Virus record (IMG/VR): IMGVR_UViG_3300029309_000186
Coordinates: 1-31,958 of that record
Source of the DNA: a virus
DNA: 31,958 nt
Reading direction: 5' to 3' (one strand)
Shown here: positions 1,079 through 31,958 of the stretch, in pieces
How the letters are laid out: the number at the start of each line of letters is the position of its first letter
Numbering within the stretch: the first letter of the stretch is position 1
Notes under the pieces: generated by a model
Databases searched by the model: none
Told to the model about the DNA's origin: nothing
Seen by the model: the letters and a program-made list of their open reading frames with translations, nothing else
Program-made: the position numbers and the translations under genes

Positions 1079-2998
1079 TTATAGTGTTGCATTTTCTACT
1101 CTATTTCTATCTAAAGCTTGGCTTGTAGTGACTTCTCCGCTGACTACAAAAGCTTGAACAGGTGTTTGTTGTAATTGTGCTAGCTGATTTACGCCTGAAT
1201 CTCCCACTACGTTAAAACTTGGTGCTTGTGCTTCGCTATTTACATTTACGCTTGGCGATTCTCCACCGCCTCCACCTTCAAATGTTTGACTTGCAATAGA
1301 CGCCACTTGTGCTGCACCAGCTACACCAATAGCTACAGCGTTTGCAATTCTTAAACTTTGTGTAGGAGTGAAATCAGTTGTTTCCGCAAACACCTTTGTA
1401 ATCGCTTGTGCCGTGTTTATGGTTGCTTGTGCAATACCAACGGCTTTCTGAACATTAAACGCCTTTTTTGCTTGTTTTTCACTTCCTTTACTAAATAACT
1501 CTGCAATGTCGTTTATCGCTGTAAGTGATTGATTTGCTACCATTACTCTATAGTCTGCTAATTCTTTAGATATTTTCTTTTCTCCATCAGCCCTTTTTTC
1601 AACCCCTTTTAATACAACTTCAGTTTTTGCATCTTCAAACAATTCTAAAGTTTCTATTTCTGAAGTAAAATTATCTAATTGTTTTTGCCTAAACTCTTCA
1701 TTTATCCTGTCTTCTTCTTTTTGCTCAAGCTGATTAAAAAGCTCTATCAATCTTAGTTTGTCTTGGCCTTGTGCCGTAATATCTTCACGTTGCCTTCTAA
1801 AGTTATCACGATTCAACTCCAGCTCTTTTTTAAGACCGTCCTCCATTAATTTGTTTTCAAGGTCTTCTATTTTTCGAGCTGCATTAAACCTGTCCTGTAG
1901 GTGTTTTTTATAACTGTCCGTTCTTTTTTTATTCTCGTTTATTTCATTAATTGTCAGTTCATTTTGCAATGATGCTATATCGGAATTAACTTTTGCTACT
2001 AACGCTCGTTGTTCGTCTATAAGTTTACGATTTGTTTCTGCTCCGAACTCTGTTTGCTGCAAAAGTTTTTCTAGGTCATCTATTTCTGCCAATGCGTCCT
2101 TTGCGTTTTGTTGTTGTACGGCAATACTATCTTCTATTTTTTGTTGTCTTAGTTCAAAACTACTTTTGCCTAATGCTTCCATCAAAGCAATCTCATCATC
2201 GTATTGTTGTTGTCGTGCATCAAACGCAATTTTGTCTAATTCCTTTTGTCGCTGCGTTTCTTGAAAATGTTGTTTTGCTCTTTGCGACCTTGCTTCTGCT
2301 AGTTCTTCTTCAGCAAAATCAGTAAATCCAATAAAATCTGTAAATTCTTTTAGTTTATCTATTGCTGGATCAAGAAAGCTTGTGAACTTTGCAAGTGCTG
2401 CTATTGCTGCTGCTATAGCCGTTGCAATTAATAAAAACGGATTCAAATTCATTACAAAATTGAACGCTGCTTGTGCTTTTGTTGCTATTCCTGTTGCGCC
2501 CCCAAGTTCTTTGTATGCCACGCCTAAACCTTGTACACCTTGTTGAATTGCCAAAGCTGCTTGAACTTTAACAAGTGTTTTTTCTAATGCTTCATTTTCG
2601 CTGCCAAATAAAGCCATAGCACCCTGCGTAGCCGCAAACCCACTTGTTGCACCTGTTAAAGCACTCCCAAGTTTTTGGCTCATTGTCTGTGCTGCACCAT
2701 CAACGGCTAAATCCGTTTGAATTTGAACCTTGCGATATTCACCTACTTTTGTTAATAGCTCTTGATATTCTTTTGAAGTAGTGTCGCCAGCAAGTGCTAA
2801 CTCATATAAACGATCTTCAGCTTCGCCTAATCGTGTTGTAAGGGGTTCAACACCTTTAAATACATCTTCAAATTTTGCATCCAGATTTTCAGCACTATCA
2901 GTCGCTTTTTTTACTCCTGTTGATAATGTTTCAAATTGCTTTGCAGCTTCATCAGCGTTCGTGTTTATGTCTATGTCTATAGTTCTTTTTTGAGCCAT
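1079..2998 (-). CDS. Tail tape measure protein, copy A (639 aa)
   Basis: This is a long, Ala/Gln/Glu-rich, largely helical protein with coiled coils (about residues 230-470) and a hydrophobic segment near 185-210 (AIAAAIAALAKF). That is the usual build of phage tape measure proteins, which set tail length and line the tail tube. The C-terminus carries a conserved block (AQAPSFNVVGDSGVNQL...ENATL) shared almost exactly with the copy at 29982-31958, while much of the middle differs. The start is the ATG of MAQKRTIDID, preceded by the class II leader ATATTCA and overlapping the 62-aa ORF by 22 nt. At 639 aa it would imply a tail of about 100 nm using the usual 1.5 angstrom per residue rule. It is oddly placed after the large tail-tip-like proteins. 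Confidence 0.85.
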   Translation of the reverse strand: MAQKRTIDIDINTNADEAAKQFETLSTGVKKATDSAENLDAKFEDVFKGVEPLTTRLGEAEDRLYELALAGDTTSKEYQELLTKVGEYRKVQIQTDLAVDGAAQTMSQKLGSALTGATSGFAATQGAMALFGSENEALEKTLVKVQAALAIQQGVQGLGVAYKELGGATGIATKAQAAFNFVMNLNPFLLIATAIAAAIAALAKFTSFLDPAIDKLKEFTDFIGFTDFAEEELAEARSQRAKQHFQETQRQKELDKIAFDARQQQYDDEIALMEALGKSSFELRQQKIEDSIAVQQQNAKDALAEIDDLEKLLQQTEFGAETNRKLIDEQRALVAKVNSDIASLQNELTINEINENKKRTDSYKKHLQDRFNAARKIEDLENKLMEDGLKKELELNRDNFRRQREDITAQGQDKLRLIELFNQLEQKEEDRINEEFRQKQLDNFTSEIETLELFEDAKTEVVLKGVEKRADGEKKISKELADYRVMVANQSLTAINDIAELFSKGSEKQAKKAFNVQKAVGIAQATINTAQAITKVFAETTDFTPTQSLRIANAVAIGVAGAAQVASIASQTFEGGGGGESPSVNVNSEAQAPSFNVVGDSGVNQLAQLQQTPVQAFVVSGEVTTSQALDRNRVENATL

Positions 2999-6658: not shown

Positions 6659-7209
6659 TTATTAGGTCTTTTAAAGTTTTCGTCTGTTATTTGTGTAAAT
6701 AGTTTTTCCATATCTAGTCCGTATTTTTCTACAAGTTGATTCGGTAGTCGCTTGTAGAATTTTTCAAATGGTTTGGTAAAAAATAGTGTTGGTTTTATGC
6801 CTTTCTCAAATATACTTCTTGCTATTACAAAAGCTAAACCCTTTCGCTTTACGAACCTTCCTTTCTTATCTCTTATTTTGTCGCTAAACCCTTTCTTAAC
6901 TATCCATTTATCGAATGCTTTTGGTGGTGGCATACCTTTCAAGCTACCTTGTCCACCTCTACGAGTATATCTGTAACCATCTAAACTTTTACCACTCTTA
7001 ACACCTTTAACCCCTCGATCTTGATAAAAGCCGTAGTCTTCCATCTCAAAGCTAATCTGTATACTATTTTTAGATTCTTTAACAACACTACTTAAACTTT
7101 TGCTTAATCTTCCAGAAGTGTTTTGGCTTGTTAAGTTTCTTTTAGCTTCACGAATTACGTTGCTTCTAAAGTCGTTTAGTAAATCTTGTATGTTTTCAAA
7201 TTCTGCCAT
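6655..7209 (-). CDS. HK97 gp10-like tail completion protein (184 aa)
   Basis: This small basic protein starts at the ATG of MAEFENIQDLL. A TTG two codons upstream is possible, but the ATG forms a TAATG overlap with the preceding gene. The N-terminal helix, then GRLSKSLSS, GFYQDRGVKG and a Gly/Lys-rich loop, match the pattern of HK97 gp10-family neck proteins, in which a variable loop follows a YGxYxDxG-type motif. Such proteins sit at the head-tail interface. Length is close to family size, slightly long. It is the second gene of a tail-completion pair with the 150-aa gene upstream. Confidence 0.6.
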   Translation of the reverse strand: MAEFENIQDLLNDFRSNVIREAKRNLTSQNTSGRLSKSLSSVVKESKNSIQISFEMEDYGFYQDRGVKGVKSGKSLDGYRYTRRGGQGSLKGMPPPKAFDKWIVKKGFSDKIRDKKGRFVKRKGLAFVIARSIFEKGIKPTLFFTKPFEKFYKRLPNQLVEKYGLDMEKLFTQITDENFKRPNK

Positions 7210-7661
7210 TAACAAATAGTCATCGAATTACTTACTAATATATCAACCGTTAAAGTTGCACCAGCTAATTTGTTCTCAAATCGTTCTGTAAAAAATTCAG
7301 CGCTTGGGTTGCCGTCTACTTGAAACGCATCGGTGTATAGTGTGCCACGTCTTAACAACTCATAACACCTGTTAAGAACTGCTAACTGTGTATTGATTAT
7401 ATATAATTCGTTATCGTTGCCTTCAAACTTATCGGTTGTTTCGTCTTTTGTTATGTCCACAATATCCATAGCTAAAATACTGATGTTGTATCTTATTACG
7501 TTTTCTTCAAAGGTTGCGCTATTTACGATCAAGTGAACCAATGGGAAAATGGTTTGCTTTGATAAATCCACTTCGAATATATCGCCTTGTGTAACGGTGT
7601 TCACTAATTCGTCTGCCTCAAAGTGTGCTTTTAGTTTGTCTATAATATCAAAATAATTCAT
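7209..7661 (-). CDS. Putative tail terminator / head-tail closure protein (150 aa)
   Basis: This 150-residue acidic protein starts MNYFDIIDKLKAHFEADELV. An N-terminal helix is followed by alternating strands (FPLVHLIVNSATFEENVIRYNISI... ending ATLTVDILVSNS), a layout seen in tail terminator and neck proteins. Its position directly before a gp10-like gene supports that reading, and the stop TAA overlaps the next ATG. There is no catalytic motif. Assignment rests on size, fold impression and gene order. Confidence 0.5.
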   Translation of the reverse strand: MNYFDIIDKLKAHFEADELVNTVTQGDIFEVDLSKQTIFPLVHLIVNSATFEENVIRYNISILAMDIVDITKDETTDKFEGNDNELYIINTQLAVLNRCYELLRRGTLYTDAFQVDGNPSAEFFTERFENKLAGATLTVDILVSNSMTIC

Positions 7662-7669
7662 AATATATA

Positions 7670-7939
7670 TTATCTTCTCATTTGTTGTTTAAGTTCGTTT
7701 GCTTCGATTTGGTTTTTTTGCTTTTCGAAGGTAAGATAGGTGAGACATTTAGTAAGTCTGTAGTTTGTAACTTCGTCAAATCTGGTAACATCTCCTTTAG
7801 CAAGTGCATAGATTGAATTATACCATCCCCATTGTTTACTAAATTGTTGCCTTTCGCTGTACTGCTGAAAGTCATCGTCTTCAGTTCGTTCTGTAAATAA
7901 TTGATTGTAAGATTCAGTAATTCGCTTCCTAAAGTCCAA
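7670..7939 (-). CDS. -1 frame extension of the chaperone-like gene (reached by frameshift)
   Basis: This 89-codon frame opens at the T9 run of the overlapping 249-aa gene and has no ATG of its own; it starts at a TTG within the slip site. Its product (DFRKRITESYNQLF, QFSKQWGWYNSIYALAKGD, VTRFDEVTNYRLTKCLTYL) looks like a normal helical phage protein, with a WGWYxSIYxLAxGDxxxFxE pattern that I recall in Bacteroidetes phage tail-region proteins. Joined after residue 163 of the 0 frame, it gives a 252-aa product. Either programmed -1 slippage on U UUU UUU or a miscounted homopolymer would explain it. Confidence 0.6.
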   Translation of the reverse strand: MDFRKRITESYNQLFTERTEDDDFQQYSERQQFSKQWGWYNSIYALAKGDVTRFDEVTNYRLTKCLTYLTFEKQKNQIEANELKQQMRR

Positions 7940-8427
7940 AAAAAAACCGAACTACTAATTGCTACATCTAAAGGTGCAAACTTCATTAGGTCTTGCATAT
8001 CTTCGTTTGGTTCGTAGTTTACAATCGTGTAAGTGTTTCCGTGTTTTTCTTTGATAGGTCTGTACATAACAGCCATCGCTTTGTGGTATGTTTTCCAATT
8101 TTGTAAATGGTGTTCAAGATCAACGTACTCTCCGAATGTAATTTCGTCAAGCTTCGGAATAAAGCCAAACTCAATATTTTTTATTTTAAACTGCCGTATA
8201 AGCTTTGGCTTTTCGCTAAACACTTTTGTGAAGTGTGCAATTAGTTCGTTCAAGTGCTTCATCTTTATTTTACCCACATCTTTTAAATCTATGCCACAGA
8301 AAATCTGTATCATTTTCTGAGCAATAAATTCATCATCATTCGATGCTTCTTTCGTCTTTATAAATTGTTGATACCGTGATAATGGTATTTCGCTTAATGA
8401 TGTAGGTAGTAATAAATCTAACTTCAT
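7678..8427 (-). CDS. Tail-assembly-chaperone-like protein, 0 frame (249 aa)
   Basis: The first 163 residues (MKLDLLLPTSLSEIPLSRYQ, then MIQIFCGIDLKDVGKIKM, FGYVDLEH-like helices and MAVMYRPI) look like an all-helical phage tail-region protein. At 7938-7946 the gene meets nine Ts (minus strand), after which two frames stay open. The 0 frame gives an 86-residue Ser/Thr/Lys-rich tail ending KSKQTNLNNK, less protein-like than the -1 frame product. It starts with ATG preceded by the class I leader. It lies between a methyltransferase and tail-completion genes. A chaperone role is inferred from the frameshift and context. Confidence 0.55.
   Translation of the reverse strand: MKLDLLLPTSLSEIPLSRYQQFIKTKEASNDDEFIAQKMIQIFCGIDLKDVGKIKMKHLNELIAHFTKVFSEKPKLIRQFKIKNIEFGFIPKLDEITFGEYVDLEHHLQNWKTYHKAMAVMYRPIKEKHGNTYTIVNYEPNEDMQDLMKFAPLDVAISSSVFFWTLGSELLNLTINYLQNELKTMTFSSTAKGNNLVNNGDGIIQSMHLLKEMLPDLTKLQTTDLLNVSPILPSKSKKTKSKQTNLNNK
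7934..7950 (-). promoter_or_regulatory. Candidate -1 ribosomal frameshift site (T9 run)
   Basis: On the minus strand the codons GTT TTT TTT TGG contain the heptamer T TTT TTT, which fits the X XXY YYZ slip rule. A one-base backward slip moves ribosomes from the 0 frame into the 89-codon -1 frame. I did not identify a clear downstream stimulatory stem by eye. Confidence 0.55.
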
Positions 8428-8464: not shown

Positions 8465-9202
8465 CTAAAATAACTTGTATTCGTTTTCTTTTATTCTTTG
8501 CTCTGCTATCTTAAAATAGTTTTCATCCATTTCAATTCCTATACCATTTCTATTCGTGTTTTGACAGGCCAGCATTGTAGAACCTGAACCCATTGTAAAA
8601 TCTAAAACCGTTTCGTTTTCGTTTGTATAGGTTTTTATAAGATACTCCATTAATGTAACAGGTTTTTGTGTTGGGTGAATTTGTTGTTGTCTACTCCAAT
8701 TTTGAGAAAATTTTAAGATACTCTTTGGAAATCTCTCTCCGTTATTTTTGCTTTCTTTCTTTACATAAGAACCTAAAACATTTTCTTTCATATCCCTTCC
8801 GTTGTATTTGGTTTTGTTGTAAGGCTTATCTATATATTTTTGAGGGTTATATGTTGGTTGTTTTTTATAAAACAAACTTATATTTTCGTGTTGTTTTAAA
8901 GGCATCCTATTAGCGTTTAAAAATCCTGCTGATCTTTTTTTATTCCAAATTAAATCATACCTGTAATTTTTTATATTACTCATTCTTAAGGCACTGCTAA
9001 ATGGCTCAGAACCAAATAAAACTATTGCACCATTTGGCTTAATGATTCTGTTTAGTTGTTCCCACATAGGCTCAAAAGGTATAACACTGTCCCACTTGCA
9101 AGCTGTCGTGCCATAAGGTGGGTCTGTTATAATAGCGTCAATAGAACCTGTTTTTATTGACTTCATTACCTCTAAACATTCTCCTTTTCTTAAATTAATC
9201 AT
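8465..9202 (-). CDS. DNA adenine N6-methyltransferase, N6_N4_Mtase family (245 aa)
   Basis: This is an S-adenosylmethionine-dependent DNA methyltransferase. Catalytic motif IV DPPY is at residues 27-30, and the AdoMet-binding motif I (DFTMGSGSTMLAC) lies near residue 200, with the target-recognition region between them. That is the beta-class order of Pfam N6_N4_Mtase. HPTQKP before motif I is also typical. It overlaps the terminase large subunit by ATGA. No restriction endonuclease is adjacent, so this is an orphan enzyme that probably protects phage DNA from host restriction or marks DNA around packaging. Target sequence cannot be read from the protein. Confidence 0.88.
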   Translation of the reverse strand: MINLRKGECLEVMKSIKTGSIDAIITDPPYGTTACKWDSVIPFEPMWEQLNRIIKPNGAIVLFGSEPFSSALRMSNIKNYRYDLIWNKKRSAGFLNANRMPLKQHENISLFYKKQPTYNPQKYIDKPYNKTKYNGRDMKENVLGSYVKKESKNNGERFPKSILKFSQNWSRQQQIHPTQKPVTLMEYLIKTYTNENETVLDFTMGSGSTMLACQNTNRNGIGIEMDENYFKIAEQRIKENEYKLF

Positions 9203-10362
9203 AATATACTGTAACTCCCATAGTTCTTATTCATACCCAAAGTTTCCATTTCGTGATAACGCACCGCATCAATTGCGTGGTTAAAATTGTCTATCGGTTT
9301 GTTTAGTCGTTTACCTGTTTTGTCTGTGTCCCAACAGTAGCTTCTCAACTCTTTAATCAAGTTTGTGCTTTGTGATGTTACTAAATAGTCTTCACGTTGC
9401 ATTACATCTATTCCGTAGTTTATAGAATCTTTGCCTTTTGTTACACCTTTGATTGTGATTCCAGCTAATTGAATTGTGCGAATACTTTTGGGTTCGGCAC
9501 TATCTGCATATACAGGTACGTTTTTAGGAAGTAGTTTTGCTATGTCGCTATTTAGTAAACCTGTTTGGTATGTTACTTCGTTTAGTATTCGTGTTTCGTT
9601 AAGTTTGTAAACTTCGATTATAGAAGTAGGATCATTCGTATACCCAAAATCAAGCCCTATGCCGATTAATCTTGCTTCGGTTGGTATTGTGTCTATTTGC
9701 TTCCAATTACTAAAAACGATGCCCTCGAGTTTTCCCATAACACCGTTCACATAAACATCGACCCAGTTTTTCCAATAATTAGACGTTTCGGCTTTCTTTA
9801 TGTTCTTCTCTATTTGGCTTATAATACCCTGATCAAGTGCTTCGTTATCTTTGTATGTTAAGATAATTTTCTCGGCGTCTTCTTGTCCTTCAAGTTCTGT
9901 TTGCACCCAAAATTCTGCCGTTGGGTTGTAGTCTAAAAATACTTCGTCTTTTGTTCTAATTGACATTTCGTTAAAACTTTCAAAACTTATATTATTACAC
10001 TCGTTTATGTACAGAATGTTTCTACGACCACCACGAAGCTTACTAGCGTCTACATCAGCACTAAAAAATTCTATAAAGCTACCGTTTGAAAATTCGTATT
10101 TTAAAAGACTTTTGTTATAGCGTTCATCTACAAACCTATTAATAGACTTCATAATCTTTAAGAAGTCACGCAAAGCACCTCTACGAAGAACTGGTATTGA
10201 TTCTGCTACTACGCTTATTTCTGTGTTTGGTGTTTTAGCAGCACGATCTATTAAGATAGGAATTATGCCGTAGGTTTTTCCAGCTGATGTTCCACCTTGT
10301 ACAATCTTGATTCGTTTTTTTAAAGCAAGTATTTTATTTATCGCCGTTGTTCTTTGAAACAT
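9199..10362 (-). CDS. terL: Terminase large subunit (387 aa)
   Basis: This is the DNA-packaging motor ATPase and nuclease. Walker A GGTSAGKT is at residues 23-30 and the Walker B/catalytic strand ILYINECN ends with the Glu near 121. The coupling-type stretch FLDYNPTAEFW follows. The C-terminal RuvC-like nuclease shows acidic residues in GIGLDFGYTNDP (about 245), VYADSAEPKS (about 290) and NHAIDAVRYHEM (about 370). I chose the ATG of MFQRTTAINK, 29 nt inside the small subunit gene; the upstream in-frame alternative begins with TTG. It is short for a terminase but complete. It is coupled to the methyltransferase downstream. Confidence 0.93.
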   Translation of the reverse strand: MFQRTTAINKILALKKRIKIVQGGTSAGKTYGIIPILIDRAAKTPNTEISVVAESIPVLRRGALRDFLKIMKSINRFVDERYNKSLLKYEFSNGSFIEFFSADVDASKLRGGRRNILYINECNNISFESFNEMSIRTKDEVFLDYNPTAEFWVQTELEGQEDAEKIILTYKDNEALDQGIISQIEKNIKKAETSNYWKNWVDVYVNGVMGKLEGIVFSNWKQIDTIPTEARLIGIGLDFGYTNDPTSIIEVYKLNETRILNEVTYQTGLLNSDIAKLLPKNVPVYADSAEPKSIRTIQLAGITIKGVTKGKDSINYGIDVMQREDYLVTSQSTNLIKELRSYCWDTDKTGKRLNKPIDNFNHAIDAVRYHEMETLGMNKNYGSYSIL

Positions 10363-10753
10363 CTGGAAATAGTGGTTGCTCAATATTAGTTTGTTCTATC
10401 TGCTCTTTTAGTGCGTTTAAACGTGCAGTAATGCTTGGATTGTATTGCCCTACCATACCGCCTTTTATTTGATCGTCTCGTATTTCTTTGCGTATGCGTG
10501 TAGAGATAGTACAAAAATCTTCGTAAGCTTTGTTAGTATTCTCTAAATAATGCTTTGCCGTGAAGTTATATTTATCGTGACAGAAGATTTCAAACCCTTC
10601 TATTGTGAAAGGTACTTCTAATGGTTCTCCTACCATATCGCCTGTTCTTTGGTTAAGATGATATTTGAATCTTGGGTTCGTTTTTGTGTAGCTTTTATAC
10701 TCTTTGAATATTTCTTCTAATTGTTTTGGGTCTTTAATTTTTTTTGGTCTCAT
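10334..10753 (-). CDS. terS: Terminase small subunit (139 aa)
   Basis: This 139-residue protein lies immediately upstream of terL and overlaps it by 29 nt. It begins MRPKKIKDPKQLEEIFKEYK and contains an N-terminal helical DNA-binding-type region (FTIEGFEIFCHDKYNFT) and a helical oligomerisation region (NTNKAYEDFCTISTRIRKEI). The segment GGMVGQYNPSITARLNAL matches the pattern common in small terminases of Bacteroidetes phages. It would recognise the packaging site and hand DNA to terL. Assignment is strong by motif and position together. Confidence 0.82.
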   Translation of the reverse strand: MRPKKIKDPKQLEEIFKEYKSYTKTNPRFKYHLNQRTGDMVGEPLEVPFTIEGFEIFCHDKYNFTAKHYLENTNKAYEDFCTISTRIRKEIRDDQIKGGMVGQYNPSITARLNALKEQIEQTNIEQPLFPDVSKNNGDK

Positions 10754-28401: not shown

Positions 28402-29960
28402 TTCTTAGAACTTTTTGGGTGTTTAGCTGGAAGCAAATCATAATCAGTTGTGTATTTTGCATTTTGTGGTCTTCCGTTTTTTAGTAAATACAAAAAAGCG
28501 TTTACTCTTGCCATTGCCCACTGTTTTGCGCTTTTAACGGTTGGTGAATGACTTGTATTATACGCACCTAAACCCCTTTGAAAAACACTTTTTAAAGCGC
28601 CTACATTTGCACCGTAGCCGAGTTTATCTTTGTATCTTTCGTTAAATTCATTACTCTTTTTTCGTAAACTTTCTTCGTCTGCTTTACTTACAACTGCACC
28701 TCTACTTGTACCAGCATCGCCTTTAGCACTTCCCTTGCCCTTTGGTTTTGGGTTTGGTGTGTCGCTTTTAGGTGCTTTTTTGCTTCGCTTTACACCACCT
28801 CTTGGTCCTACTTCTGCGTATTTACTTTTTTTTTTAACGCACTTGCCGTTCTTCTTTTCGTAGCCCTTTGGACATTTACCGTAAAGATCTAAATTGTGTG
28901 TTTCGCCAACCATATACCAAGTCTTACCTTCGTATTCGTGTTCGTGTATGCCATCAACGCCTACATCTTTAGCTGCTTTTTCTGCCATAGCTTTAGAAGA
29001 ATAGGCAAGTCGGTCATCTATAATTGCAAAATTGTCATCGATTAACATACTTGCCAAGTCCTCTCTCTCTATTTGTTTTAGCTTAGATTCTGCCCAAGTC
29101 TTTGCTGATTTGCCACCCCATAGTAAATAACTAATATAACCGCAAGATTCTTTGTCTCCAGCATCGTAATAAGTTTCTGCTCTACTTAAAAAACTAAACA
29201 TTCTTTTTACCGTGCTTTCGCTTACAGGTTCGCCATTAGCTAATTGCTGCGCACGTACTTTGCCTACTTGTGTAGCACATTTGTTGCCTACTGCTTTGTT
29301 TAGTTCTATGCCTCGTTTTGCGTTGTTTCTTACGCTTTCCGGATAGTCGCTATAACTTTCTAATTCTTGTTTTTGTAGAAGTTCTTTTAGTTCTTCAACA
29401 AGCATTTTCTTTTCAAAGTCTTCAAAGCTTTCTTCTTTGGTCATATCGTATTTATCTGCAAAATACCCTTCGATACTGAAACCCTGTATAGTGCCGTCTT
29501 TTGCTTTGTTGTATAGTTCTTGATCGTCAATTTTCATACTAATCATCCACGTGCCTTCAGGTACGTTTAAGCCGTAGTGTGCGCTTTTATCTTTTTTCGT
29601 GTTTTCGACAATCCAACTCTCGACTATTGTAGTGCCTTTTATTGGTTGTTTATGTTCGTAGGTTGCGTTTTTGTGGTTTGAACGCTTAAAGAATAATTCT
29701 GAAGCTTTGCGAACTGTGTCTTTACTGAAGTAGATGTAGTATTCATCATTCGTTTTTTCGTTGCGTCTGTAGATTTGTTTATTAGGTACTAAAGCAGCAC
29801 CCATAAGAATACGCTTTTCTTTGTCTACTTCTTTTAGTAGTATTTGTTGTTTGTTTAGTGCAATAAAATTCTCTTCTATTGCTGGTGTTTCAACAAGCGA
29901 CACGGCTTCGATCCCGCTATTTTCATCTGTTTCGTCTATAATTAATTCAACTATCCTCAT
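28398..29960 (-). CDS. Capsid maturation protease fused to accessory domains (520 aa)
   Basis: Residues 1 to about 185 look like an XkdF/prohead-protease-type domain (MRIVELIIDETDENSGIEAV; IVESWIVENTKKDKSAHYGL; IQGFSIEGYFADKYD). A helical domain follows from about 200 (SDYPESVRNNAKRGIELNKA; YISYLLWGGKSAKTWAESK). A short HEHEYEGKTWYMVG segment lies near 340 and a Cys pair (CPKGYEKKNGKC) near 360. After a basic Pro/Lys-rich linker, the C-terminus (about 430-520) contains QWAMARVNAFLYLLKNGRPQ, a domain recurring in phages. It follows tape measure copy B by 21 nt and ends with an ATGA overlap. The first 352 residues are repeated at 1-1057. Confidence 0.78.
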   Translation of the reverse strand: MRIVELIIDETDENSGIEAVSLVETPAIEENFIALNKQQILLKEVDKEKRILMGAALVPNKQIYRRNEKTNDEYYIYFSKDTVRKASELFFKRSNHKNATYEHKQPIKGTTIVESWIVENTKKDKSAHYGLNVPEGTWMISMKIDDQELYNKAKDGTIQGFSIEGYFADKYDMTKEESFEDFEKKMLVEELKELLQKQELESYSDYPESVRNNAKRGIELNKAVGNKCATQVGKVRAQQLANGEPVSESTVKRMFSFLSRAETYYDAGDKESCGYISYLLWGGKSAKTWAESKLKQIEREDLASMLIDDNFAIIDDRLAYSSKAMAEKAAKDVGVDGIHEHEYEGKTWYMVGETHNLDLYGKCPKGYEKKNGKCVKKKSKYAEVGPRGGVKRSKKAPKSDTPNPKPKGKGSAKGDAGTSRGAVVSKADEESLRKKSNEFNERYKDKLGYGANVGALKSVFQRGLGAYNTSHSPTVKSAKQWAMARVNAFLYLLKNGRPQNAKYTTDYDLLPAKHPKSSKK

Positions 29961-29981: not shown

Positions 29982-31958
29982 TTATAGTGTTGCATTTTCT
30001 ACTCTATTTCTGTCTAATGCTTGACTTGTCGTAACTTCGCCACTCACTACAAACGCTTGTACTGGTTGCTGTTGGAGTTGAGCGAGTTGATTTACGCCTG
30101 AATCTCCCACTACGTTAAAACTTGGTGCTTGAGCTTCGCCACTACTTGCATCTAAACTTGGTGTTTCGCCACTTGCACCACCTTCAAATTTAGTTTTTGA
30201 AATAGTTGCGATTTGCGCTGCACCAGTCGCTGCTACAATTCCAGCTTTAACAAAGTTAGCACCAGTTAGCGCATCTTGTGGTACTGCTAATTGTGCCATA
30301 ATACCCTGTGCCGTACTAACTACTGCTTGTGCAATACCTACTGCTTTGTTAATGTTAAATGCTTTTTTAGCGTTCTTTTCATCGTCTTTAGCAAATGCAT
30401 TAGCAAGTTCTCCAATAGCACCTAACGAATCGTGAGCAATACTTAGACTCGTATCAGCTACTGCAATAGCATTAGCTCTTTTATCAGCAGCCAATTGATC
30501 ATCAATAGCTTTTTGACGTGCTGCACTTTCAGCCATTTGTTTTTCAATCTCCTCTTGAGTAAGTTTTTTGATTTCAATTTCTTTTACTGATTGAAGTTCA
30601 AGTTGTGCAATTTCGCCATCAAATGATTCTAATTTAAATACGTCAAACTTTTCTCGTATTTCTTTTTCTTTTTTAAGTTCAAGTTGATTGAGCAAATCTA
30701 TTATTTCTTGCTTTTGTTTTCCTTGTGCTGTAAGGTCTTCACGTTGCCTCCTAAAGTTATCTCGATTCAACTCAATCTCTTTTTCAAGACCGTCTTCCAT
30801 TAATTCGTTTTCAAGGTCTTCTATTTTTCGAGCTGCATTAAGCCTGTCCTGTAGGTGTTGTTTAAACTTTTCAGTTCTTGCGTTTTCTCGTTGCTCAACT
30901 CCTTCTTGAAAATCTATGTCGAGGTTTGTTCTTCTTATGTTAAAGTCTTGTAATGCTGAGAAATTTCTATCTATTATTTGTTGCCTTAACTTAGCTTCAG
31001 CTTCTTGGCCTTTAGCTGCTCCGTCAAGTGTTTTCTGAGAAATAGCAACACCTTCTCTATTAGCCTGTTGTAATAGACTTTGGATCTTTTTGTTCTGAGC
31101 TTCTAATTGTTTTAGTCTAGTTTTTTGACCCTCTAAAAATAACCTTTCTTCTTTGTCTATACTATCTTTAGCTGCCTTTCTTTTGTTATTTTCTATCCTC
31201 TCAATCTCTTTAGCGTTGCCTTTAGCTTGTTTTATCTGAACGTCAAAAATAGACTGGAGAGTAGTCTGTCTTTTCTTTTCTGCAGCCACCAATTTATCTA
31301 TGGCTTGCTTTTCTTCTTTAGCGTTAGCTATGGTTTGATTGTGTCTTTTTTGTTCTGCCTCAAACCTTTCTTCTGCTGCAAAATCTGTAAGTCCTATGGC
31401 GTCACCAATAGCTTTGAACCCATCTATAACAGGTTTGAAAAAACCTATTAGTTTATCAAAGTTTGAAATAAGTAAACCAATACCAACAATTAGAGCACCA
31501 ATGCCTGTACTAATTAACGCAACCCTCAACGCTTTAAATAGTCCAGTCGTTGTGCCAGTCATAATACCCCATAGCTTAGTAGCTTTTGTTGCTAATCCGA
31601 CACTACGGCTATACTCTAAAACACCTTGCACACCTTGTTGTATAGCTAAAGCGGCTTGCACTTTTAGTAATGTTTTTTCAAGCGCTTGTGATTCGCTGCC
31701 TACCAAAGCCATGGTGCCTTGCACTACTGCAAAACCACTTGTAGCGCCTCCTAATGCTGTTCCTAATTTTTGGCTGAATGTTTGTGCAGCTTGATCTACT
31801 GCTAGATCCGTTTGAATTTGTACCTTTCTATATTCACCTACTTTTGTTAATAGCTCTTGATATTCTTTTGAAGTAGTGTCGCCAGCAAGTGCTAACTCAT
31901 ATAAACGATCTTCAGCTTCGCCTAATCGTGTTGTAAGGGGTTCAACACCTTTAAATAC
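29982..31958 (-). CDS. Tail tape measure protein, copy B (5' end cut by window edge)
   Basis: The frame is open to the right edge, so the apparent ATG at 31724 is internal. The visible 658 residues start VFKGVEPLTTRLGEAEDRLY, equal to residue 46 of copy A, giving an estimated full length near 703 residues. It has a hydrophobic segment (VALISTGIGALIVGIGLLIS) in place of the Ala-rich one in copy A, a long coiled-coil region, and the same C-terminal block (AQAPSFNVVGDSGVNQL). The central patch KHLQDRLNAARKIEDLEN is also shared. The longer coil predicts a tail about 10 nm longer. Confidence 0.85.
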   Translation of the reverse strand, partial: VFKGVEPLTTRLGEAEDRLYELALAGDTTSKEYQELLTKVGEYRKVQIQTDLAVDQAAQTFSQKLGTALGGATSGFAVVQGTMALVGSESQALEKTLLKVQAALAIQQGVQGVLEYSRSVGLATKATKLWGIMTGTTTGLFKALRVALISTGIGALIVGIGLLISNFDKLIGFFKPVIDGFKAIGDAIGLTDFAAEERFEAEQKRHNQTIANAKEEKQAIDKLVAAEKKRQTTLQSIFDVQIKQAKGNAKEIERIENNKRKAAKDSIDKEERLFLEGQKTRLKQLEAQNKKIQSLLQQANREGVAISQKTLDGAAKGQEAEAKLRQQIIDRNFSALQDFNIRRTNLDIDFQEGVEQRENARTEKFKQHLQDRLNAARKIEDLENELMEDGLEKEIELNRDNFRRQREDLTAQGKQKQEIIDLLNQLELKKEKEIREKFDVFKLESFDGEIAQLELQSVKEIEIKKLTQEEIEKQMAESAARQKAIDDQLAADKRANAIAVADTSLSIAHDSLGAIGELANAFAKDDEKNAKKAFNINKAVGIAQAVVSTAQGIMAQLAVPQDALTGANFVKAGIVAATGAAQIATISKTKFEGGASGETPSLDASSGEAQAPSFNVVGDSGVNQLAQLQQQPVQAFVVSGEVTTSQALDRNRVENATL

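Follow-up and report, generated by a model that had tools for sequence, protein, structure and literature searches.

The window analysed here is the whole of a virus record of 31,958 bases (IMG/VR record IMGVR_UViG_3300029309_000186). It holds a late phage gene with a run of nine Ts (T9) from which two proteins would be made, with about 160 N-terminal residues in common and different C-terminal tails. Standard decoding would give the 0-frame product, of 249 amino acids, and a slip of one base at the nine Ts would give the -1 product, of 252 amino acids, with a conserved all-alpha tail. The slip might lie in transcription, with RNA polymerase adding one U too many, in translation, with the ribosome slipping by -1 on U UUU UUU, or in both. 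From comparative sequence analysis we put at about 80% the probability that this is one gene with -1 slippage at T9 and two isoforms with alternative, selected C-terminal tails. The -1 tail is the universal part of the family. In the clade of the window and in a sister clade, the 0-frame tail would be a second protein-coding tail, overlapping the -1 tail over 64–91 codons. The two isoforms are probably made; the occurrence of slippage, its level and mechanism, and the function of the products are what we infer.

Two Open Frames at a Run of Nine Ts

An earlier note on this DNA had claimed that T9 joins two long frames with products of 249 and 252 amino acids, and its coordinates and tail lengths are borne out. 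The gene starts at 8427 on the minus strand and meets T9 at codon 161. The parts of the gene are as follows.

7947..8427, minus strand: shared N-terminal coding part, ~160 codons, PHROG 32199-like, function unknown
7938..7946, minus strand: T9 slip site GTT TTT TTT TGG (A9 on the plus strand), with the heptamer T TTT TTT at 7945-7939
7678..7937, minus strand: 0-frame tail of the 249-amino-acid product, stop at 7680-7678
7670..7945, minus strand: -1-frame tail, 91 codons, with the WGWY motif, stop at 7672-7670; the fusion has 252 amino acids

The slip site is kept throughout the relatives. A search of viral contigs found 207 relatives, and the best 80 of them were retained; the window clade as analysed has 74 full-length sequences (73 relatives and the window). 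T9, or T10 arisen by substitution, and the need for a -1 shift are found in 74 of 74. In this clade both frames are open to nearly the same point, with 0-frame tails of 85–91 codons and -1 tails of 91–94. The sister clade, ~45% identical and reached via a Flavobacterium metagenome-assembled genome, has T9 and needs the -1 shift in all its 81 sequences; its 0-frame tail is exactly 64 codons long in 78 of 78 complete genes, and its -1 tail has 84 to 87. Among Inhavirus-like relatives (~28% identity), 14 of 14 have at least nine Ts and need the shift. The isolated Nonlabens phages P12024L/S (28% identity) have T9 in the same place and the conserved -1 tail, with a 0-frame tail of 27 codons, and in twelve further Inhavirus-like relatives this tail has 18–28 codons. 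The run of nine Ts occurs in two different phases, and the T TTT TTT heptamer is perfect in both. Programmed -1 slippage, proposed in the earlier note, is thus strongly supported, with the run retained and the shift required in all full-length relatives.

Sequencing and replication both readily go wrong at homopolymers of nine, and one could suppose that the real run is T10 and the gene an ordinary one in a single frame. However, the shift is needed in ~170 sequences from many metagenomes as well as in the isolated phages P12024L/S, and the T10 runs that do occur arise by substitution and still need it. Such a sequencing or assembly error is exceedingly improbable, and both it and a pseudogene were discarded as ruled out by the ~170 relatives. 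The possibility of ten Ts in an ordinary gene, raised in the earlier note, also fails in that no relative was found with T8 or with an in-frame fusion. Nor does any of the relatives found have the 0-frame tail but lack the -1 frame, a combination that the earlier note had named as a refutation of slippage.

In the phylogenetic tree of the N-terminal part, which has long branches and a midpoint root, the two clades with long tails group with each other (97/93), and the relatives with short tails stand apart from them. The direction of change would be growth of the 0-frame tail rather than shrinkage. A fuller version of the history would have two functional overlapping tails (64–91 codons), produced as RNA polymerase slips on T9; overprinting would have given rise to the long 0-frame tail a single time, in an ancestor shared by two large clades of Flavobacteriaceae-type phages. 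We hold this at even odds.

Hundreds of aquatic phages carry members of the slip-gene family, which lacks annotation. In JQ823123.1 the homologous slip gene (9001-9695) is annotated as separate hypothetical genes 40 and 41, and its T9 slip is unannotated. A further scan using a distant relative (L097) gave nothing additional, and one hit (MT836615) was dismissed because it looked spurious. A contig of 59,277 bases (L160) has two tape-measure-like loci, and a contig common to two of the relatives (L141 and L171) has two copies of the slip gene; each seems to hold two phage copies.

Openness and Selection in the Overlapping Frames

Both frames are open beyond chance. In 20 other genes of the window, the corresponding out-of-phase frame is open in none of 5082 windows of 85 codons. 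For this -1 protein and the codon usage of the phage, one expects 6.2 stops in the 0-frame tail and a probability of ~5e-5 per sequence that it stays open, and no stop is found inside the 0-frame tail of any sequence.

Silent variation in the -1 frame falls two- to three-fold over the 0-frame open reading frame (ORF) and recovers beyond its stop. At four-fold sites of the -1 frame, the average difference in the window clade is 0.24 in the overlap and 0.54 where only one frame codes; the sister clade, which serves as an internal control, has 0.50 ahead of the slip, 0.19 within the 0-frame ORF, and 0.61 past its stop. Site counting in the style of OLGenie was applied to pairs of middling divergence, with bootstraps over codons and with the same out-of-phase frame of the N-terminal part as control. 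The 0-frame dSN/dSS is 0.25 (0.19–0.35), against 1.2 (0.84–1.95) in the control frame, and its dNN/dNS is 0.46 (0.34–0.64), against 0.79 (0.54–1.24); the dN/dS of the 0 frame is about 0.5. As changes creating stops were excluded from the counts, the signal exceeds mere avoidance of stops. Between the two clades, identity in the 0 frame is 0.37, when 0.23 would be expected from the conservation of the -1 frame alone. By these substitution patterns, the 0-frame tail is under purifying selection as a protein.

Some points weigh against this reading, and those on gene position and on family matches, given below, are to be added to them. The ratios come from site counting and not from full codon models, and the sequence pairs are not independent of one another; the same counting in the sister clade gives the same trend with wide intervals. 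Under a stricter null, in which the gene's own codons are permuted, 12% of the 0-frame tails stay open (a probability of ~0.12 per sequence), a higher value because local codon use is itself biased. Finally, no stimulatory RNA structure was found downstream of T9, where folding is not unusual (mean z of +0.6 in one clade and -0.1 in the other).

The permutation result bears on the idea that slippage is real but that the 0-frame tail has no function as a protein, being open through codon bias or in order to carry ribosomes to the next gene. The position of the 0-frame stop in the window clade, 4–19 bases ahead of the next gene, would suit such an idea, as would the short 0-frame tails that suffice in the Inhavirus-like relatives. 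In the sister clade, however, the 0 frame ends 55–78 bases ahead of the next gene, which weakens translational coupling as the reason for an open 0 frame, and yet silent variation is equally suppressed, right up to the 0-frame stop. The amino acids are constrained too, given the exclusion of stop-creating changes, and identity between the clades lies above the level forced by the -1 protein. A functionless tail is accordingly unlikely.

The low silent variation could also reflect an RNA or DNA element in the overlap, such as a slippage stimulator or a regulatory structure, and frameshift sites do often carry stimulatory RNA signals (PMC5009743). Against such an element stand the ordinary folding just mentioned and the shape of the constrained stretch, which covers ~190 nucleotides and ends at the 0-frame stop, with the 0 frame always open. 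We regard it as very improbable. Under the preferred reading, that of two selected tails, the fact that the selected stretch stops where the 0 frame does opens the claim to a direct test.

Separate models were made of the 0-frame product and of the -1 tail. In the model of the 0-frame product, a helix extends across the slip site into the 0-frame tail, after which come a second helix and a disordered terminus; both helices and beta hairpins are predicted for the N-terminal part. The -1 tail is modelled as all-alpha. The description of the 0-frame tail as low-complexity in the earlier note fits only its last ~25 residues; the first ~60 are mainly two predicted helices and appear to be under purifying selection. 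The WGWY...LA.GD pattern noted in the -1 tail is real and conserved. Searches of BFVD gave three uncharacterised phage proteins of 258–267 amino acids (A0A6J5N0W0, A0A516L611, and A0A516L5A8), with a fold match to the 0-frame product and to the -1 tail. As the same proteins match both, the fusion may be encoded in a single frame in some distant relatives.

How the -1 Tail Would Be Reached

In the window and sister clades no ATG occurs in the -1 tail ahead of codon 65, which makes slippage the evident route to it, and an independent start was ruled out on this ground. A TTG lies within the T run in some members of the window clade only.

In many bacterial genomes, selection against slippage-prone runs begins to show at a length of nine (PMC1088944), and transcriptional insertions at runs of A or T increase exponentially with run length (PMC5574713). 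The run studied here reaches this slippage-prone length, as is looked for in genes with transcriptional slippage. We lean toward transcriptional slippage, alone or together with ribosomal slippage, on account of the nine Ts kept in two phases, the literature on run length, and the lack of an RNA stimulator downstream of T9.

Gene Context and Possible Role in Tail Assembly

In the window the slip gene heads a same-strand run of genes that leads to a tape-measure-like gene. The order is the terminase large subunit (TerL), a methyltransferase-like gene, the slip gene, two small genes of unknown PHROGs, two larger genes, and the tape-measure-like gene. The neighbours used as context are as follows.

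7209..7661, minus strand: next gene, 150 amino acids, PHROG 30964, unknown function, start 8 bases past the -1 stop
1079..2998, minus strand: tape-measure-like gene, downstream, same strand
9199..10383, minus strand: TerL, upstream

The same arrangement, with the slip gene at the head of the run, is found in Inhavirus and in a sister-clade contig. In three genomes, of the three groups, the slip gene lies on the strand of the tape-measure-like gene, 4.5–6.5 kb upstream of it. Two features expected of a tail assembly chaperone (TAC) gene are present: a conserved slippery site near the end of the first domain (T9 with T TTT TTT, in all full-length relatives) and a C-terminal extension that only a shift can reach in the two large clades. 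Several genes stand between the slip gene and the tape measure gene, so that the two are not neighbours; the position of the slip gene after TerL is not the one between the major tail protein and tape measure genes that is typical of TACs. Nor was a TAC family match obtained: the only match is to PHROG 32199 (unknown), with none above cut-off in Pfam and NCBIfam; a lone match to Pfam TAC_7, below cut-off (E = 0.12), appeared in 1 of 40 members. No PDB fold was matched, and the fold and family searches yielded only uncharacterised phage proteins.

By the same two-isoform mechanism, the gene might encode something other than a TAC, such as a neck protein or a head-tail connector that exists in two forms. 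Its place right after TerL and before two small genes, away from the tape measure gene, the beta hairpins predicted in its N-terminal part, and the absence of TAC family matches all speak for this. However, -1 slippage is the feature by which the TAC genes of long-tailed phages are known (PMC5009743), and near the tape measure gene of the window no further frameshifted pair came to notice, although no systematic scan was made for one. A non-TAC protein is a serious possibility, to which we give somewhat less than an even chance. Taken alone, the proposal that the products form a pair like lambda G/GT and take part, together with the tape measure protein, in assembling the tail is about as open to doubt as to belief. 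The slip gene can be described as a tail-module gene that would work like a TAC, membership of the TACs being our best guess, and in this sense the term chaperone-like in the earlier note survives as a conjecture, with neither a family match nor a neighbouring tape measure gene behind it.

The record has two tape-measure-like genes, at its two ends (1079-2998 and 29982-31724, minus strand), with 44% identity overall and the last ~45 residues identical but for one; the two may be paralogues that lie in tandem in a circularly permuted genome. There is also an A10 in the coding strand of a protease-like gene (28826-28835), without a long alternative frame after the run, and it looks incidental.

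Comparison with Known Systems

The new element would be the second, selected 0-frame tail. In the described cases that were checked the overlap is short (PMC5009743, PMC3931495), although a similar case may exist. The earlier note had called a 0-frame tail of this length atypical, in agreement with these few cases, lambda and P2. If the reading is right, slippage genes of phages are not limited to a short product with a rare extension, and each product may have its own evolved tail in the same DNA. The series of 0-frame tails (18–28, 64, and 85–91 codons) on a fixed slip site would then be a natural case for the growth of an overlapping region.

The gene resembles lambda G/GT and the TACs of double-stranded DNA phages in giving, as proposed, two products from one start by a -1 slip at a slippery site, in the alpha-helical -1 extension, and in its place on the strand of the tape measure gene, upstream of it. 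In lambda the slip occurs near the 3′ end of g (PMC5009743). Unlike lambda G/GT, the slip gene follows TerL instead of standing beside the tape measure gene, its site is T9 and not a bare heptamer, and no sequence or fold match was found. In phage P2 E/E+E′, with a T6G slip site, the -1 slip likewise takes place on a run of Ts within a tail operon, but E′ reaches only 37 nucleotides back into E (PMC3931495). In the Nonlabens phage Inhavirus P12024L, genes 40/41 form a homologous gene after TerL with T9 in the same place and the conserved -1 tail, the difference being its 0-frame tail of only 27 codons. Citrobacter tssM (A11) and Thermus dnaX (A9) likewise have runs of at least nine identical bases and two isoforms per gene (PMC4256274, PMC1088944); there one frame stops soon after the run, whereas here both are long and conserved. 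Potyvirus P3N-PIPO is similar in having a long overlapping second frame that is reached by slippage, with both frames coding (PMC4552492). It belongs to a plant RNA virus, with an A6 site and unrelated genes, whereas in the phage gene the two frames end together, as alternative C-termini.
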